Positions 1,875 to 47,079 of a stretch of DNA of 64,000 bases are shown in pieces. The position numbers and the translations under genes are program-made. How positions within the stretch are numbered: position 1 is the first letter of the stretch; the number at the start of each line of letters is the position of its first letter. The notes under the pieces were generated by a model that saw only the letters and a program-made list of their open reading frames with translations, made no database searches and was not told the origin of the DNA. The stretch covers positions 1-64,000 of the forward strand of contig JAKSOL010000011.1 of NCBI GenBank assembly GCA_024405635.1, read 5' to 3'. The DNA is from Salinivirgaceae bacterium. Its GTDB lineage: Bacteria > Bacteroidota > Bacteroidia > Bacteroidales > SZUA-534.

Positions 1875-2840
1875 ATGAAAAACCTAAGCGAATACATAAC
1901 TGGACTACTTTTTATTCACGATTGCGTGATACTTCCGGGCTTTGGTGGTTTTGTAACCAATTACAAAGAGGCTGGCCACGACAAACTAAGCCACACTTTT
2001 ACTCCGCCAACAAAAGATTTGCTTTTCAATAAAAACCTAACATACAACGACGGTTTGTTGATAAATCATTTGTCGCAACTAAAAGGCATTAGTTATGCTG
2101 AGGCCGAACAACAAGTAAAGCAAAGTGTTGATGCAGCATGGACAAAACTTGAAAATGGCGAAACACTTAAGTTTGACGGCATAGGTTCGTTTATATATAA
2201 CAACGAAGGTCAACTTCAATTTGAACCAGAAGTGAGCGAAAACCTACTTACCGACTCGTATGGAATGATGTCGTTTCGTTTTCCACCGCTCAACTATCAA
2301 GACAAAACAGAAACAACCGCAGTATCGCACCAAGTTCCAAGTTACAAAAACGCATTGCGCATTGCTGCCATATTAGTTCCAATAGCTTGCTTAGTTGCAA
2401 CAATACCAATGTATAATAACATGCATAGCGAATCGGCCAGTTTAGCTCCATTGCCAAAACAAAACGAGCCAATTGAACAAACATTAAGTGCATCGCTTGA
2501 CTCAGACACCACGCTAACTGAAGTGCTTGAAGCATCAACCAACAAACGCACTGCATTATTCTACAACGAGCCAGCACCTCAAAAAACAACACAACAACCT
2601 GCCACAAAAGGCAATTTTGTTTATCACATTATTGCAGGTAGTTTTAAAGATGCCGAACACGCCAACATTCACGCAAAGAAATTTCAAAAAGAATTTAATA
2701 CACAAGTGGTTGAAACCGATAACATGTACCGCGTTTCAATTCGCCAATTTAACGATAAAGTTTCGGCCCTACACGAATTGCGACACATACGCGCAAACGA
2801 ACAGTATAGCTCATTTTGGCTGCTAACTGTCGAAAAATAG
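1875..2840 (+). CDS. HU-CCDC81 and SPOR domain membrane protein
   Basis: A 321-residue protein with the Bacteroidota-specific arrangement of two N-terminal HU-CCDC81 domains (about residues 1-140, with the signature PGFGGFV near 21-27), one transmembrane helix (about 161-178) and a C-terminal SPOR domain (about 245-321). SPOR domains bind denuded septal peptidoglycan, so the C-terminal part is expected in the periplasm and the HU-like part in the cytoplasm. This architecture could link the chromosome or a cytoplasmic partner to the division site; that role is inference. The ATG at 1875 is the only start consistent with the promoter at 1824-1853. The linker after the helix is rich in Thr, Gln and Pro. 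Confidence 0.88.
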   Translation: MKNLSEYITGLLFIHDCVILPGFGGFVTNYKEAGHDKLSHTFTPPTKDLLFNKNLTYNDGLLINHLSQLKGISYAEAEQQVKQSVDAAWTKLENGETLKFDGIGSFIYNNEGQLQFEPEVSENLLTDSYGMMSFRFPPLNYQDKTETTAVSHQVPSYKNALRIAAILVPIACLVATIPMYNNMHSESASLAPLPKQNEPIEQTLSASLDSDTTLTEVLEASTNKRTALFYNEPAPQKTTQQPATKGNFVYHIIAGSFKDAEHANIHAKKFQKEFNTQVVETDNMYRVSIRQFNDKVSALHELRHIRANEQYSSFWLLTVEK

Positions 2841-19801: not shown

Positions 19802-19836
19802 CCACGCAAAACAAAAGGTCTAGGCCTTAATGTGAT

Positions 19837-19951
19837 GTTATATTGAAGAATGGAGAGATTAGGCTCGATGAAGTTCTAGCAACCTCTTCTCAACGAAGAA
19901 AAGGTGCTAATACCTAACCCAAAGCGGAATAGTCCGACAGGGAATTATAAC
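19837..19951 (+). ncRNA. SAM-I (S-box) riboswitch upstream of metX
   Basis: The leader carries the SAM-I core in order: GGAGAGAT, GGCTCGATGAAG (19862-19873), TAGCAACC (near 19877-19884), a P3 hairpin CTTC/GAAG, AAGGTGCTAATACC (near 19901-19914), a P4 hairpin CGGA/TCCG, and a closing P1 stem GTTATA (19837-19842) with TATAAC (19946-19951). SAM-I riboswitches bind S-adenosylmethionine and turn off methionine genes. No terminator with a T-tract follows, so control is probably at translation or by another expression platform in the 200 nt before metX. Confidence 0.92.
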
Positions 19952-20152
19952 AACAGTTTGAAAATGAAAGACTTAACCACTGGCCAATTAAACTACTTTT
20001 CGGCCTACACAAAATCGTCGATGCGCCTATAGGTGCAGTAATCAATTAAGTTTCTTCAAAAAAAGCAACACACAACGTGTTGACGCAACTGCAAACAAAT
20101 TATGGTGCAGCTGCTAATTATTTATTTAAATCGGCAATATAAATATCAGAAT
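19952..20152 (+). other. metX leader between the riboswitch and the start codon
   Basis: This 201-nt untranslated stretch completes the 421-bp gap between paralogue B and metX. It holds a 22-codon open frame (19964-20032) that begins MKDLTTGQLNYFSAYTK, and a 6-bp hairpin CAACAC/GTGTTG (20066-20082). Nothing resembles an intrinsic terminator. The mini-ORF is not methionine-rich, so it is not an obvious attenuator peptide. Confidence 0.5.
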
Positions 20153-21220
20153 ATGAGTAGCATAAAAGACAAATACTTGACTCACGACAACGGCAAAAGT
20201 TTGAATTATTATACCACAAGCGAAGGACTAGACCTTGATTGCGGCGAGCATCTTGATGAACTTACTATTGCATACACAACATACGGCACCATGAATGCCG
20301 ACCAAAGCAATGTTGTGTGGATTTGTCACGCATACACCGCCAACGCTGACCCAATTGATTGGTGGCCTGGCATGATTGGAGAAGGCAAATACTTTGATCC
20401 AAACAAGTACTTTATCGTGTGTGCCAATATTTTAGGTTCATGCTACGGAACAACAGGACCATTGAGCATTAATCCAAAAACTGGCAAACCATACTACCGT
20501 TCATTCCCTTTGACTACCGTGCGTGACCAAGTTCGTGCTCACGAGGTACTGCGCAAACACTTGGGTATCAAATCAATATGGCTAATATTAGGATGCTCTA
20601 TTGGTGGACACCAAGCACTTGAATGGTGCGTTAGCAATCCTAACCTTATTAAAACGGCCATTTTTGTTGCTACAAATGCCAAAACAACACCATGGGTTAC
20701 TGCATTTAACGAAGCTCAGCGCATGAGCATTTTGGCCGACCCAACCTACCAAAACGACACACCCGATGGCGGTGCTGCAGGATTAGCTGCTGCTCGCGCT
20801 ATGGCACTTATTAGCTACCGCAACCGCGAGATTTACAATCGCACCCAGTCGGAGCCAGCAGCCAACAACGATATTCTTGACGGCTACCGCGCCAACTCGT
20901 ACCAACGCCACCAAGGCGACAAACTAGTTGACCGTTTTAATGCATACTCATACTACTCACTATCGAAAGCACTTGATTCACATAACGTTGGACGTGGCTA
21001 CGGCGATTTTAAAACAGCTTTGGGCCGCATCACCGCTCGCACGTTAGTAATTGGCATCGACACCGATATTTTGTTTCCTATTGATGACCAAAAAGCCATT
21101 CACGAGGGTATTGCAAACAGCCAAATGGAGATACTTCACTCCGACTACGGCCACGACGGATTTTTGCTTGAGTTTGAAAAACAAGTTGTTATGTACGACA
21201 AATTCTTGTTTGGCAAATAA
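20153..21220 (+). CDS. metX: Homoserine O-acetyltransferase
   Basis: A 355-residue alpha/beta-hydrolase-fold acyltransferase that acetylates (or in some lineages succinylates) homoserine as the first committed step of methionine synthesis. The nucleophile elbow is GCSIGGHQALEW (Ser), the acid is in GIDTDILFP (Asp), and the His is in DYGHDGFL. The start at 20153 (MSSIKDK) is chosen because the open frame upstream is non-conserved leader. The SAM-I riboswitch at 19837-19951 supports the assignment and predicts repression when SAM is abundant. No metY, metB or metC is next to it. Confidence 0.94.
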   Translation: MSSIKDKYLTHDNGKSLNYYTTSEGLDLDCGEHLDELTIAYTTYGTMNADQSNVVWICHAYTANADPIDWWPGMIGEGKYFDPNKYFIVCANILGSCYGTTGPLSINPKTGKPYYRSFPLTTVRDQVRAHEVLRKHLGIKSIWLILGCSIGGHQALEWCVSNPNLIKTAIFVATNAKTTPWVTAFNEAQRMSILADPTYQNDTPDGGAAGLAAARAMALISYRNREIYNRTQSEPAANNDILDGYRANSYQRHQGDKLVDRFNAYSYYSLSKALDSHNVGRGYGDFKTALGRITARTLVIGIDTDILFPIDDQKAIHEGIANSQMEILHSDYGHDGFLLEFEKQVVMYDKFLFGK

Positions 21221-41973: not shown

Positions 41974-44900
41974 TTATATTCTTAGACCGATAACTAGGAT
42001 ATCGTCAACCTGTTCGTAGTCTGCCTTGAATTCTATGTGTATATTGTCCAAAATTTGGCGTTGACGCTCCATTGGCAAATTCCATATCTGCAACAGACTT
42101 TGCCTAAATCGGTTCTTCTTGAATTTCTCAGTACCGTTTTGTCCACCAAATTGGTCGCAGTAGCCATCGGAAAAGAAATAAAGGCAATCACCCTCTTGAA
42201 CACTGATGGTGTTGTTTGCAAAATGTTTTTGGTTTTGCACAATATCGCCAAACGCGCACGGCATTTTATCTACCTTATATTCAATAAGTTCTCCGTTTCT
42301 TATTAAAAATAACGGGTTGTGGGCTCCTGCAAACTGCACTTCCATTTTCTCCCTATCGATGGCCAACAAACATAAGTCCATACCATCTTTAGCTGCATTA
42401 TCTCCTTTGTCGGAAAAAGAGCGTATAATGCTTTCCCTCAGCTCGTCGAGTATGATGCCAGGTTCGTCGTTGTGCTCCACTTTTACAATCGAATTCAGCG
42501 AGTTCATGCCAAGCATGCTCATCATGGCTCCTGGAACACCGTGACCTGTGCAGTCAGCGGCCGTAATTATTAGCTTTTTACCAAGCTCAGCGCACCAATA
42601 AAAATCGCCACTCACTATGTCGCGAGGCTTAAACAAGATGAACGAATCGCTTACATAGTTTTTCATACACTCGGTGTTTGGCAACGATAGGCGTTGAATA
42701 CGGGCCGCATAGTTGATGCTATCGGTTAACTCCATGTTCTGTTCCTTAATGGTGTCAAGTTGCTCGCTTATCTGCTTTGTTTGACGCTTTACTTCCATGT
42801 CAAGCAATCGGTTTCGTGCCTTCAACTGATAGGTGTAGTATTTTACACCTCCGTAAATCATCAGCATAACGAGTAGCAAATAAATAACGTAGGCTACAAT
42901 TGTACGATACCATGGTGGTCGTATGGTGAACGAATATTCGGCAATGCTACTTTCGATGCCAAACACGTTGCGCGCCCTTACTTGAAATATGTACTTTCCT
43001 TCGCGCAAATTATTGAACGACACGCTGTTTGACCCTAACCAGTTGGACCAGTTAGTCATCAATCCTGATAAGTAATATGAATATTCGAGTGCGCCTGGGC
43101 AACGGAACCATGGTGCCGAAAAGTTAAACGAGAGCGAATTATACTTATAGCTTATCTTCTTGTTTGGCGTTCTAATAAAGACATTTGGCGCATCGGTTAT
43201 TATTTCCCTGTTCACTACGTAGTACGACACATAGTCAATAGGCGAATAGTTATCGCACATTACCAAACCGCCTACCGTTCCTAACCATATATACCTATTG
43301 TTTGTAGCATAAATGGCATTAATCTTACCAACGTCAAGGCCGCGGAATTTCTTGTCGTTCAACGTACTGTCGCCTTTGCTGTAATAAGCAATGTTGGTGC
43401 CTTGCGAAATCCACGCAGTGTTGTCGTCGCTCTTTACCATAAATAGGTTGCCCATCATGTTTAGCTCGTCGGCAGGCGTAAAATAAAACAATTCGTAAGT
43501 ATGAAGCGTGTCGTCGATAGATGTTGTCACACGCTCGTTGCCTGTTTTGCAAATGATGCCATTGTTTAGAAACATCACTTGCCCATATAGTTTTATTGGT
43601 TTTGAAGGACCAGGTTTTAATCCATTGGTCTCGCCATAATACTCAACCGAGGCATCAAAACCATCGTAGTTTACTTGTGCTATGCCCTGTGTGCTAGAAC
43701 CGAGCCAAATGGTGTATATTCCAATGCTATCAACCTGATTTTCGATATCAGTTACACTGAATCCCTCTGCCTCTCCAATAATTGGAATCCACTTATTGTC
43801 AATATTTTCGCAAATAATGAGACCTTGACTACCTCCAGCAAACAGACACATACCATCGGCACTTACCGATATGCAATGAACATCGGCGCTCGATAGTTTT
43901 TCAAACTTGCCGTAAGCCGACATTACAAACAAACCATCGGCAGTGCCAACAAAAAGCGATTCGGAAGTTCTTGCCAAGCACCAAACCGTATTTTTTAGGT
44001 TGCCCACCTCTTCAAAAAGCGCTTCAGTGTAGTTTCTCAAATTGCGCTTTTGAACCAACAGTCCGTTTGACGTACCTACAAATAACTGCCCTTTATAGTC
44101 AATCACCGCATTTACGCTACCATTTATTCCACTTTCTGACGAAAATACAGATATAACATCGTTAGTAGGCAATAGCGTAATGCCCTTGTTAGTTGTTATC
44201 CAAATGTTTTGCTCGCGGTCGCAGAAAATGTTGTTTATGCAATTGTCTATCAATCCGTTGTTAATGTTCTTATGCGAAACAATTGTTCCGTCGGTATTGA
44301 CAATCATAACGCCATTGTCGTACGAACCAAGAGCCAACGTAGTATCGTTAATTAAAATGCAACTAGTTACCTTAAAATCTTCGTTCTTAATAGTCTTATC
44401 AAGTTTCGACGTGTTAGGTGTTATCTTATTGTCGTGCAATATCCAAGACCCGTCTTCGTAGCTGACTATCAATATGCTATCGCCATCTATTGACAACATT
44501 CCAAATATTCCCACGTTGGCAAACACATCGCCATTTGGCACTACCGAAACGGTATCGGCATTCAACACAGCAAGCCCCACTTCACGCTGACGAACGTAAA
44601 GTTTATTGTTGACACAAAACGAATTATGAAAAGTTGTGCTCGGTTCTATAATGGTGATTTTTTCGCCGTCATAAGCAAAAATGTAATTGTAGCTCTGAAA
44701 ATAAACCCTACCATCAATACGGTAAATTTTCCATATTTCGGAGAATGGCGAAATGTAGTTTCTTATTGAATCAGACAGCGAATAATAATCGAACGACTCG
44801 CCATTTTCGTGCAACAAAAGCATTCCAAACTCATTTGAACCGCCTACAAAAATGGTGTCGCAAGTCGGGTTTGTCAAAATGGACTTAACCCATACTCCAG

Positions 44901-45126
44901 GCTTTACACTAATGCGGTCCCAAAAACTGCCATCGTATTTGAAAATGGCATTGGCTGTGCCAAAAAACATAATGCCTTGCGCATTTTGGGCAATGGCATA
45001 GTTCTCAGCATCATAGTTTTGTCCATAATTTTTTGGACCATAATTTACTGGTGAGTAATTTCTTATTTGCGCGTTGGCCACAATTGGTACTACCAACAAT
45101 ATAAGCAGAATGGCTCTTTTAATCAT
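41974..45126 (-). CDS. Membrane propeller sensor with cytoplasmic SpoIIE-type phosphatase
   Basis: 1050 residues. The signal segment (MIKRAILLILLVVPIVANAQ) is followed by about 620 residues of two-component-regulator-type propeller repeats (for example NIWITTNKGITLLP, YIWLGTVGGLVMCDN), a Y_Y_Y domain (about 650-735), one transmembrane helix (about 735-765), a short coiled coil and a SpoIIE/PP2C phosphatase domain (about 815-1050). Metal-binding motifs are visible: DIVSGDFYW, AADCTGHGVPGAMMS, FSDGYCDQFGG and QVDDILVIGL. It is built like the Bacteroidota hybrid sensors but with a serine/threonine phosphatase output in place of a histidine kinase. Start at 45126. Confidence 0.88.
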   Translation of the reverse strand: MIKRAILLILLVVPIVANAQIRNYSPVNYGPKNYGQNYDAENYAIAQNAQGIMFFGTANAIFKYDGSFWDRISVKPGVWVKSILTNPTCDTIFVGGSNEFGMLLLHENGESFDYYSLSDSIRNYISPFSEIWKIYRIDGRVYFQSYNYIFAYDGEKITIIEPSTTFHNSFCVNNKLYVRQREVGLAVLNADTVSVVPNGDVFANVGIFGMLSIDGDSILIVSYEDGSWILHDNKITPNTSKLDKTIKNEDFKVTSCILINDTTLALGSYDNGVMIVNTDGTIVSHKNINNGLIDNCINNIFCDREQNIWITTNKGITLLPTNDVISVFSSESGINGSVNAVIDYKGQLFVGTSNGLLVQKRNLRNYTEALFEEVGNLKNTVWCLARTSESLFVGTADGLFVMSAYGKFEKLSSADVHCISVSADGMCLFAGGSQGLIICENIDNKWIPIIGEAEGFSVTDIENQVDSIGIYTIWLGSSTQGIAQVNYDGFDASVEYYGETNGLKPGPSKPIKLYGQVMFLNNGIICKTGNERVTTSIDDTLHTYELFYFTPADELNMMGNLFMVKSDDNTAWISQGTNIAYYSKGDSTLNDKKFRGLDVGKINAIYATNNRYIWLGTVGGLVMCDNYSPIDYVSYYVVNREIITDAPNVFIRTPNKKISYKYNSLSFNFSAPWFRCPGALEYSYYLSGLMTNWSNWLGSNSVSFNNLREGKYIFQVRARNVFGIESSIAEYSFTIRPPWYRTIVAYVIYLLLVMLMIYGGVKYYTYQLKARNRLLDMEVKRQTKQISEQLDTIKEQNMELTDSINYAARIQRLSLPNTECMKNYVSDSFILFKPRDIVSGDFYWCAELGKKLIITAADCTGHGVPGAMMSMLGMNSLNSIVKVEHNDEPGIILDELRESIIRSFSDKGDNAAKDGMDLCLLAIDREKMEVQFAGAHNPLFLIRNGELIEYKVDKMPCAFGDIVQNQKHFANNTISVQEGDCLYFFSDGYCDQFGGQNGTEKFKKNRFRQSLLQIWNLPMERQRQILDNIHIEFKADYEQVDDILVIGLRI

Positions 45127-45179
45127 CTTTATTATTTCATACTTGATTATACAAATATGCAAAAAAGAGAATGATAAAG

Positions 45180-45400: not shown

Positions 45401-45679
45401 TATGAGTTTTTATGCAAGATCTAGTTAAGAATACTTTCTACTTTTCTTTGCCATTCTCGTCAATATAAACTCTTGTTGTTTTTAGCCGCATCAAACTTAC
45501 TTTTACCAGTAAAACTTGCTCTTTTCTATTTCACAACCTACATTTGTTGTATTTAGGATAAAACTCGTTTCTAAATATTGTCTGTTGCTTGCAATTCATC
45601 AATTATCAACTTGGTAGAAACATTGATAATCTAAAATCTCATGCTATCGAATAATAGACAATAGGCAAAATAGATAATG

Positions 45680-45709
45680 TTTTCACGTAACAAAACTTTG
45701 TTACCTTTG
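45680..45709 (+). promoter_or_regulatory. Promoter of metK
   Basis: TACCTTTG (45702-45709) fits the -7 consensus and a T-rich GTTTT about 19 bp upstream serves as a partial -33. Transcription would begin just before the SAM-II-like RNA. Confidence 0.6.
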
Positions 45710-45717
45710 CGCTACAA

Positions 45718-45772
45718 TTGTGGAAAGATTTGAGATGATTGCAACCACAGAAAAAAATGCTAAAGCACATTC
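45718..45772 (+). ncRNA. SAM-II-type riboswitch upstream of metK
   Basis: The leader has the SAM-II layout. P1 is TGTGG (45719-45723) with CCACA (45745-45749). Its loop contains GATTTGAGATGATTGCA, matching the family's GAUUU-seven bases-UUGCA in spacing and ends. The A-rich tail leads into TGCTAAAGC (45758-45766). GCA of the loop can pair with TGC of the tail, and GATG (45734-45737) with CATT (45768-45771), giving the H-type pseudoknot. SAM-II binds S-adenosylmethionine and is mainly known from Alphaproteobacteria. The metK start lies 50 nt downstream, consistent with translational control. Confidence 0.8.
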
Positions 45773-45822
45773 TTTTCCTTTTATCTCGACTTTCCCTTTA
45801 ACTTATTAAATTTTAATTAGTT

Positions 45823-47079
45823 ATGGGATACTTATTTACTTCTGAATCGGTGTCGGAAGGACACCCAGACAAAGTTGCCGATCAAATTTCGGACGCCATT
45901 GTTGACCAATTTTTGGCCTACGATGCAAAATCAAAAGTAGCTTGCGAAACACTTGTAACCACAGGACAAGTGGTTGTAGCTGGCGAGGTTAAATCTGATG
46001 CCTACGTTGACGTGCAAGAAGTGGCACGCGAAGTGATTAACGCCATTGGCTACACCAAAGCCGAGTATCGTTTCGATGGCGAATCGTGCGGTGTGCTATC
46101 GGCTATACACGAGCAGTCGGCCGACATTAACCAAGGCGTTGAGCGCGAAAAACATGAAGACCAAGGCGCTGGCGACCAAGGTATTATGTTTGGTTATGCT
46201 AGCAACGAAACCGACAACTACATGCCTCTATCGCTCGACCTTGCACACCAATTGCTTATTGAACTTGCTGCTATTCGCCGCGAGGGTAAAGTAATGACCT
46301 ACCTTCGTCCCGATGCAAAAAGCCAAGTTACTATTGAATATGGCGACGATAACAAACCTCAACGCATTCACACCATTGTTATTTCAACCCAACACGACGA
46401 GTTTGACGAAGAGGTTGCAATGCAAAACAAGATTAAACAAGATGTGATTGATATTCTTATTCCACGCACATTTGCCAAAATGCCACAACGTGTTCAGGCT
46501 TTACTCAATATGAACAACCTAACACTACACGTTAACCCAACTGGCAAGTTTGTAATTGGTGGACCTCATGGCGACACCGGTTTAACTGGTCGCAAAATTA
46601 TTGTTGACACCTACGGCGGCAAAGGCGCACACGGCGGTGGCGCATTCTCAGGCAAAGACCCATCGAAAGTTGACCGCTCAGCTGCTTACGCTGCTCGCCA
46701 CATTGCCAAAAACATGGTTGCTGCTGGCGTTGCCGACGAAATGCTTGTTCAACTAGCCTACGCTATTGGCGTTGCTCAACCTGTTAGCGTGTTTGTAAAC
46801 ACATTTGGCACTGCCAAAGTGAAAGCAACCGATGGCGAGATTGCCGAAAAAATAAACCAATTGTTCGACCTTCGTCCAGCCGCCATTGAAGACCGCTTGA
46901 AACTTCGCAAACCTATTTACCGCGAAACAGCTGCCTATGGCCACATGGGTCGCCAACCTAAAACTATTACCAAAGTGTTTAATAGCCCTTATCTTGGTAA
47001 AAAAGAGATTGAAGTTGAGCTATTTACTTGGGAAAAAGTTGATTACGTTGAAAAGATAAAAGCCACATTCGGGTTATAA
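45823..47079 (+). CDS. metK: S-adenosylmethionine synthetase
   Basis: A 418-residue enzyme making SAM from methionine and ATP. Motifs are intact: [16 protein letters not shown] (about 14-29), [30 protein letters not shown] and the P-loop-like [19 protein letters not shown]. It is somewhat longer than the E. coli enzyme, as in other Bacteroidota. The start at 45823 follows the SAM-II-type leader. It is monocistronic, with a terminator after the stop and its own promoter. Confidence 0.97.

Follow-up and report, generated by a model that had tools for sequence, protein, structure and literature searches.

Riboswitch expression platforms are mostly read from Shine-Dalgarno (SD) sequences or terminators. 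Bacteroides thetaiotaomicron was already among the SAM-II carriers in 2005 (Corbino et al. 2005, PMC1273637), and the 'SAM-II long loops' family, RF01726, was described as Bacteroidetes and marine (Weinberg et al. 2010, PMC2864571); a first-pass annotation of the present DNA called SAM-II best known from Alphaproteobacteria, but its presence here is not supported as unusual. Barrick and Breaker (2007) stated that no single species carried both SAM-I and SAM-II (PMC2258182). In the literature, as far as it was accessible, we found no description of an expression platform for RF01726.

Our analysis of the window, that is, the whole 64,000-nt stretch of DNA under study, which belongs to a bacterium of the Bacteroidales of gut type, revealed only two RNA families above their cut-offs (cmscan, Rfam 15), RF01726 and RF00162, each present as one copy in the 2.66 Mb genome. 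RF01726 was matched over its full length (1-60) at 45714-45773 on the forward strand, with 66.1 bits against a gathering cut-off of 44 (E 1.5e-10), ending 49 nt upstream of the metK ATG. The SAM-II-type riboswitch that the first-pass annotation had placed on metK is therefore a genuine member of an already classified SAM-II family, RF01726. The family number proposed there, RF00521, belongs to SAM_alpha, for which the genome gave no match at E 0.001, a weak negative since control genomes gave none either. We infer that the aptamer binds SAM. The features of this locus are as follows.

45702 to 45709, forward strand: Bacteroidetes -7 promoter element TACCTTTG (TAnnTTTG), 10 nt before P1, from motif enrichment in the order
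45714 to 45773, forward strand: SAM-II (long loop) aptamer, RF01726, 66.1 bits
45720 to 45723, forward strand: 5' strand of P1, GTGG, partner of CCAC at 45745-45748 (Rfam structure; 78 relatives)
45722 to 45738, forward strand: 5' segment of the aptamer (GGAAAG at 45722-45727 and TTGAGATGA at 45730-45738), alternative partner of the anti-aptamer strand (ligand-free fold, shuffles)
45741 to 45743, forward strand: pseudoknot core GCA, partner of TGC at 45758-45760, invariant in 78 relatives
45745 to 45748, forward strand: 3' strand of P1, CCAC (Rfam structure; 78 relatives)
45758 to 45760, forward strand: pseudoknot core TGC inside the TGCTAAAGC tail, invariant in 78 relatives
45781 to 45795, forward strand: candidate anti-aptamer strand TTATCTCGACTTTCC (ligand-free fold; recurrent in the order, loop-specific complementarity)
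45823 to 47079, forward strand: metK, SAM synthetase, 418 aa (TIGR01034, 524 bits, three S-AdoMet_synt domains)

The layout described by the first-pass annotation, with P1, loop, tail and two pseudoknot pairings, was recovered in full and is conserved among relatives. P1 (GTGG/CCAC) was paired in 100% of 78 distinct relatives, with two-sided changes at two of its four pairs, and the outcome was the same on 126 sequences; the GCA/UGC core did not vary and was likewise paired in 100% of the 78. The second, weaker pairing between loop and tail was paired in 74% of these relatives, its outer pair showing 20 two-sided changes. Upstream of P1, the TAnnTTTG element occurred at a distance of 4-14 nt in 78 of 128 leaders, as compared with 1.0 expected from its upstream density, and this position would put the start of the metK transcript just 5' of P1, at about 45714-45716. 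The closest named MetK, 82% identical, is that of a rumen Salinivirgaceae MAG. Beyond metK lie metG and then cysS. The upstream neighbour (41974-45162, reverse strand) encodes a large propeller sensor of the Reg_prop/Y_Y_Y type with a C-terminal SpoIIE phosphatase domain.

The 49 nt between the aptamer and the metK ATG of the window (27 T, 11 A, 9 C and 2 G) contain no SD sequence, and no GC-rich hairpin with a trailing U run was detected at 45500-46000, leaving the window without an intrinsic terminator before metK. The ligand-free minimum-free-energy fold of the leader, calculated without pseudoknot energies, instead contained a 15-pair helix between 45781-45795 and the aptamer segments 45722-45727 and 45730-45738, which is mutually exclusive with both P1 and the pseudoknot. 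Complementarity between these segments in the window exceeded that of dinucleotide shuffles (z -3.3). Across 123 leaders of the order, the 5' half of the aptamer was similarly complementary to the downstream leader (mean z -1.71, SE 0.13; 52% below -1.64), whereas the controls were flat (mean z: 3' half of the aptamer, -0.20; upstream DNA, -0.01; coding DNA, 0.15). Taken one by one, about half of the leaders fell short of z < -1.64, and strand pairing was weak in several of the closest relatives of the window (z about -0.7 to -1.8).

The pairing was furthermore specific to the loop of each genome. Pairing of a loop with its own leader was stronger than with leaders from genomes carrying other loops (mean rank 0.36, P 2.7e-6; P 0.001 when counted by distinct loop), and none of 5000 GC-matched permutations of the double-centred loop/strand energies reached the real pairing. 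For example, GAGAT (45732-45736) faces ATCTC (45783-45787) in the window and GAGTTGAT faces CTCAACTC in genome G004, while the GTGAATG-type loops of leaders L242 and L276 are complementary to their own strands. Composition alone as the source of the complementarity was ruled out by the dinucleotide shuffles, the upstream, coding and 3'-half controls and the GC-matched permutations. As leaders lengthen, the spacing from strand to aptamer stays constant (median 7 nt) and that from strand to ATG does not; in short leaders the strand ends 29.5 nt (SD 5.9) upstream of the metK ATG. What the sequences show directly is a conserved aptamer and a competing strand whose complementarity is specific to the loop, and this conserved strand behind the metK SAM-II is seemingly an undescribed expression platform; we found no prior description of an anti-aptamer strand for SAM-II in a search of mainly open-access literature.

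The direction of the switch is suggested by those relatives that do possess a terminator. Strong intrinsic terminators (at most -10 kcal/mol) were found in four of 127 leaders (genomes G087, G025, G008 and G126; 0.2 expected), all of them long. The G126 leader has a hairpin with TTTTTTT behind it, whose 5' arm is AAATCTCTCCG, the strand that complements GGAGAGATTT of the aptamer, and in G025 GCTCCGCA serves as both anti-aptamer strand and 5' arm of the terminator; the overlap is less distinct in G008 and G087. An intact aptamer in G126 and G025 would release the strand for the terminator, so that SAM would act as the OFF signal in those species, and by homology the same sign may be carried over to the window. 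In folding calculations with the aptamer blocked, the strand became free in 86 of the 123 leaders.

Taken together, the metK leader would operate as an RF01726 switch with an anti-aptamer strand by which SAM turns metK off, a reading to which we assign a probability of roughly three in four. Transcription would begin a few bases before P1, with 45714-45822 acting as the switch and metK off at high SAM. With SAM available, the P1/pseudoknot aptamer would form from the first 60 nt; when SAM is scarce, the C/U-rich strand at 45781-45795, made right after the aptamer, would invade 45722-45738 and destroy P1 and the pseudoknot. SAM binding would release the strand, which in a few long-leader relatives would then fold into an intrinsic terminator as its 5' arm, release then meaning OFF. 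For leaders that lack a terminator, as in the window and the majority of relatives, metK expression would be lowered by the released leader itself, which is poor in G and rich in C and U.

The terminators of relatives, the unchanged accessibility of the gene start and the tie of the strand to the aptamer favor a last step at the level of transcription. Rho-dependent termination is an established route where an intrinsic terminator is absent. It is the most likely option here, at somewhat below even odds: a Rho gene is present in the genome, and the leaders are rich in C relative to G (1484 vs 578 across the order; 9 vs 2 in the window). These two observations are the whole of its backing, and any strand that pairs with a purine-rich aptamer would be rich in C and U anyway. 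Less likely than Rho, as we see it, is a last step at translation initiation, and an effect through mRNA decay seems unlikely.

An OFF switch of the translational kind, in which either the pseudoknot with SAM bound or the strand once freed lowers 30S binding at an SD-less, AU-rich metK start and no termination is involved, is possible though doubtful. It would be in keeping with the SAM-II metX riboswitch of the crystal structure, which acts translationally (PMC6061858), with the steady distance between strand end and ATG in short leaders, and with genome G139, in which the aptamer match (leader L116, aptamer 2001-2059, minus strand) extends with its last bases into the metK ATG, so that a version of SAM-II working by direct occlusion probably exists as well. 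However, 49 nt separate the aptamer from the ATG in the window, and in long leaders it is the aptamer, rather than the ATG, to which the strand keeps close. The predicted unpaired fraction of the start region (-20 to +15) was unaltered by binding, at 0.508 free and 0.505 bound, and pairing between the strand and the metK start did not exceed that in synonymous-codon shuffles (mean z 0.17). Folding thus does not support translational control, and masking of the gene start by the freed strand was rejected on account of this constant accessibility and the lack of excess coding-start pairing.

The second SAM receptor of the window is the SAM-I riboswitch that the first-pass annotation had recognised in the metX leader. 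RF00162 was matched over its full length (1-108) at 19835-19953 on the forward strand, before metX, with 62.6 bits against a gathering cut-off of 44.4, so that the covariance-model scores at both leaders lie above their cut-offs. The features are as follows.

19835 to 19953, forward strand: SAM-I aptamer of the metX leader (RF00162, 62.6 bits, cut-off 44.4)
19964 to 20032, forward strand: short upstream open reading frame (uORF) MKDLTTGQLNYFSAYTKSSMRL followed by a stop (ending TKSSMRL), starting 11 nt past the SAM-I aptamer, with conserved position and C-terminus
20022 to 20037, forward strand: hairpin TGCGCC-TATA-GGTGCA over the uORF Met codon and stop (-8.4 kcal/mol; 15 of 16 family members)
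20153 to 21220, forward strand: metX, homoserine O-acetyltransferase (TIGR01392), from the conserved start at 20153; open in the ORF list from 20102

The best NCBIfam match of the metX product was TIGR01392 at 356 bits, lower than the 500 bits set as curated equivalog cut-off, which at the level of protein-family profiles confirms it as a MetX homologue. The uORF behind this aptamer is part of a recurrent arrangement in the order, where its ATG typically lies 10-16 nt past SAM-I. Among 51 SAM-I leaders of the order, each of at least 90 nt, a uORF started within the first 25 nt in 40 (9.7 expected), and at least two Met occurred among the last 12 residues in 28 (0.24 expected). In the family of the window's uORF, its position and the C-terminal motif [TS]K[SA][SCQ]M were found in all 16 members examined, with synonymous codon changes within the motif, and a hairpin starting at the Met codon of the motif in 15 of them, the downstream gene being metX or metY-like. 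Among the SAM-I leaders seen elsewhere in the phylum, those of other classes essentially lacked Met-rich uORFs, holding two short ORFs without Met-rich ends, and in the rest of the class such uORFs were sporadic; a general SAM-I trait was ruled out on these grounds.

The AU-rich 3' strand of the SAM-I P1 sits at the likely landing site of an SD-less ribosome. We suggest that the uORF encodes a putative methionine-responsive leader peptide whose start would be controlled by P1. A small gene for a peptide with Met codons behind the metX SAM-I is seemingly undescribed; no paper on such a uORF was found in the same mainly open-access literature.

Both riboswitches are widespread in the order, Bacteroidales. 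Our survey of 198 genomes, with 130 SAM-II places parsed in 128 genomes, found SAM-II in 129 genomes, SAM-I in 55 and both in 41, and a sample of 247 genomes from the phylum gave SAM-II in 38, of which 35 also had SAM-I. The presence of two SAM receptors in one genome, to which the first-pass annotation drew attention, is thus real but not unusual (41 of the 55 SAM-I genomes of the order; 35 of 38 in the phylum sample): SAM-I and SAM-II side by side are common and ordinary in Bacteroidales, and the 2007 statement that no species has both (PMC2258182) is overtaken by the order and phylum surveys.

The targets of the two classes show a strict split, with SAM-II on metK and SAM-I on biosynthesis. 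metK lay downstream of 128 of the 130 SAM-II matches in the order (median 67 nt to the ATG), the two other cases being a sub-threshold match in G002 and, in G083, a second copy whose downstream gene is metH-like. In the phylum, metK was next in 28 of the 29 SAM-II loci examined, one being too short to tell. SAM-I targets, classed via sequence motifs, were metH (22), metY-like (20), aspartokinase (7), metB-like (5), metX (4) and unclassified genes (3); none of these 61 leaders stood upstream of metK. The second copy in G083 (L070, contig C269, SAM-II at 1490-1548) is a SAM-II on a SAM-I-type target, and the start of its leader is close to that of the metK leader in the sister genome G187. One contig (L162; genome G100, C35) carries SAM-II and metK followed on the same strand by SAM-I and a metB-like gene, with about 1.5 kb between the aptamers. 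At the class level, many SAM-II aptamers upstream of metK (loci L328 and L335-L351) have an extra hairpin of about 20-45 nt inserted after P1 and before the GCTAAA tail; their P1 is mostly GAGG/CCUC.

The first-pass annotation read the pair as two receptors kept together for different SAM set points on consecutive steps of one pathway. The first committed step of methionine synthesis is carried out by metX, and metK turns finished methionine into SAM, so the steps are not consecutive. Although the strict targets would suit distinct set points, affinity is unreadable from sequence and an inherited, fixed aptamer per gene would account for the same pattern, and we consider this reading unlikely. 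Very unlikely, too, is that the complementarity in metK leaders is a by-product, with no anti-aptamer and SAM-II working through its own pseudoknot alone: it would fit the weak complementarity of about half of the leaders and of several nearest relatives, but not the group-level excess over three flat controls, the loop-specific covariation in permutation tests or the re-use of the strand as a terminator arm.

With co-occurrence routine and the aptamer family known, the interest of these loci lies in mechanism, that is, in the competing strand and the metX uORF. SAM leaders of Bacteroidales are largely without SD or terminator, and a co-varying anti-aptamer strand at metK offers a testable model of switching; given the Met-rich uORF that follows SAM-I, a single leader may sense both SAM and methionine. 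Tentatively, the order may hold two undescribed leader designs: a metK SAM-II with a co-varying anti-aptamer and neither SD nor terminator, and a SAM-I biosynthesis leader, such as that of metX in the window, with a leader peptide directly after the aptamer that contains Met codons and ends in KSSM or MxMR, in which SAM would gate translation of the peptide and methionyl-tRNA or the nascent peptide would make a second, methionine-sensing decision.

Compared with known systems, the metK leader shares with RF01726 (PMC2864571) its aptamer sequence and structure, a full-length match above the cut-off and the phylum, with metK context across the order, and adds a competing strand without a terminator. 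Like classical SAM-II and RF00521 SAM_alpha of Alphaproteobacteria (PMC1273637, PMC9373788), it has P1 and a pseudoknot, the TTGCA loop, the GCTAAA tail and a promoter a few bases before P1; unlike it, classical SAM-II precedes metA, metZ or metX, often with an intrinsic terminator or an SD in the pseudoknot. With Rho-dependent riboswitches (Hollands 2012, as cited in PMC10907184) it may share a logic by which ligand alters the exposure of a C-rich, unstructured leader, the role of Rho at metK being one that we infer. The metX leader, a full-length member of RF00162 SAM-I (S box), has a fold unrelated to SAM-II, and in this order that family is followed by a Met-rich uORF in place of the typical terminator.
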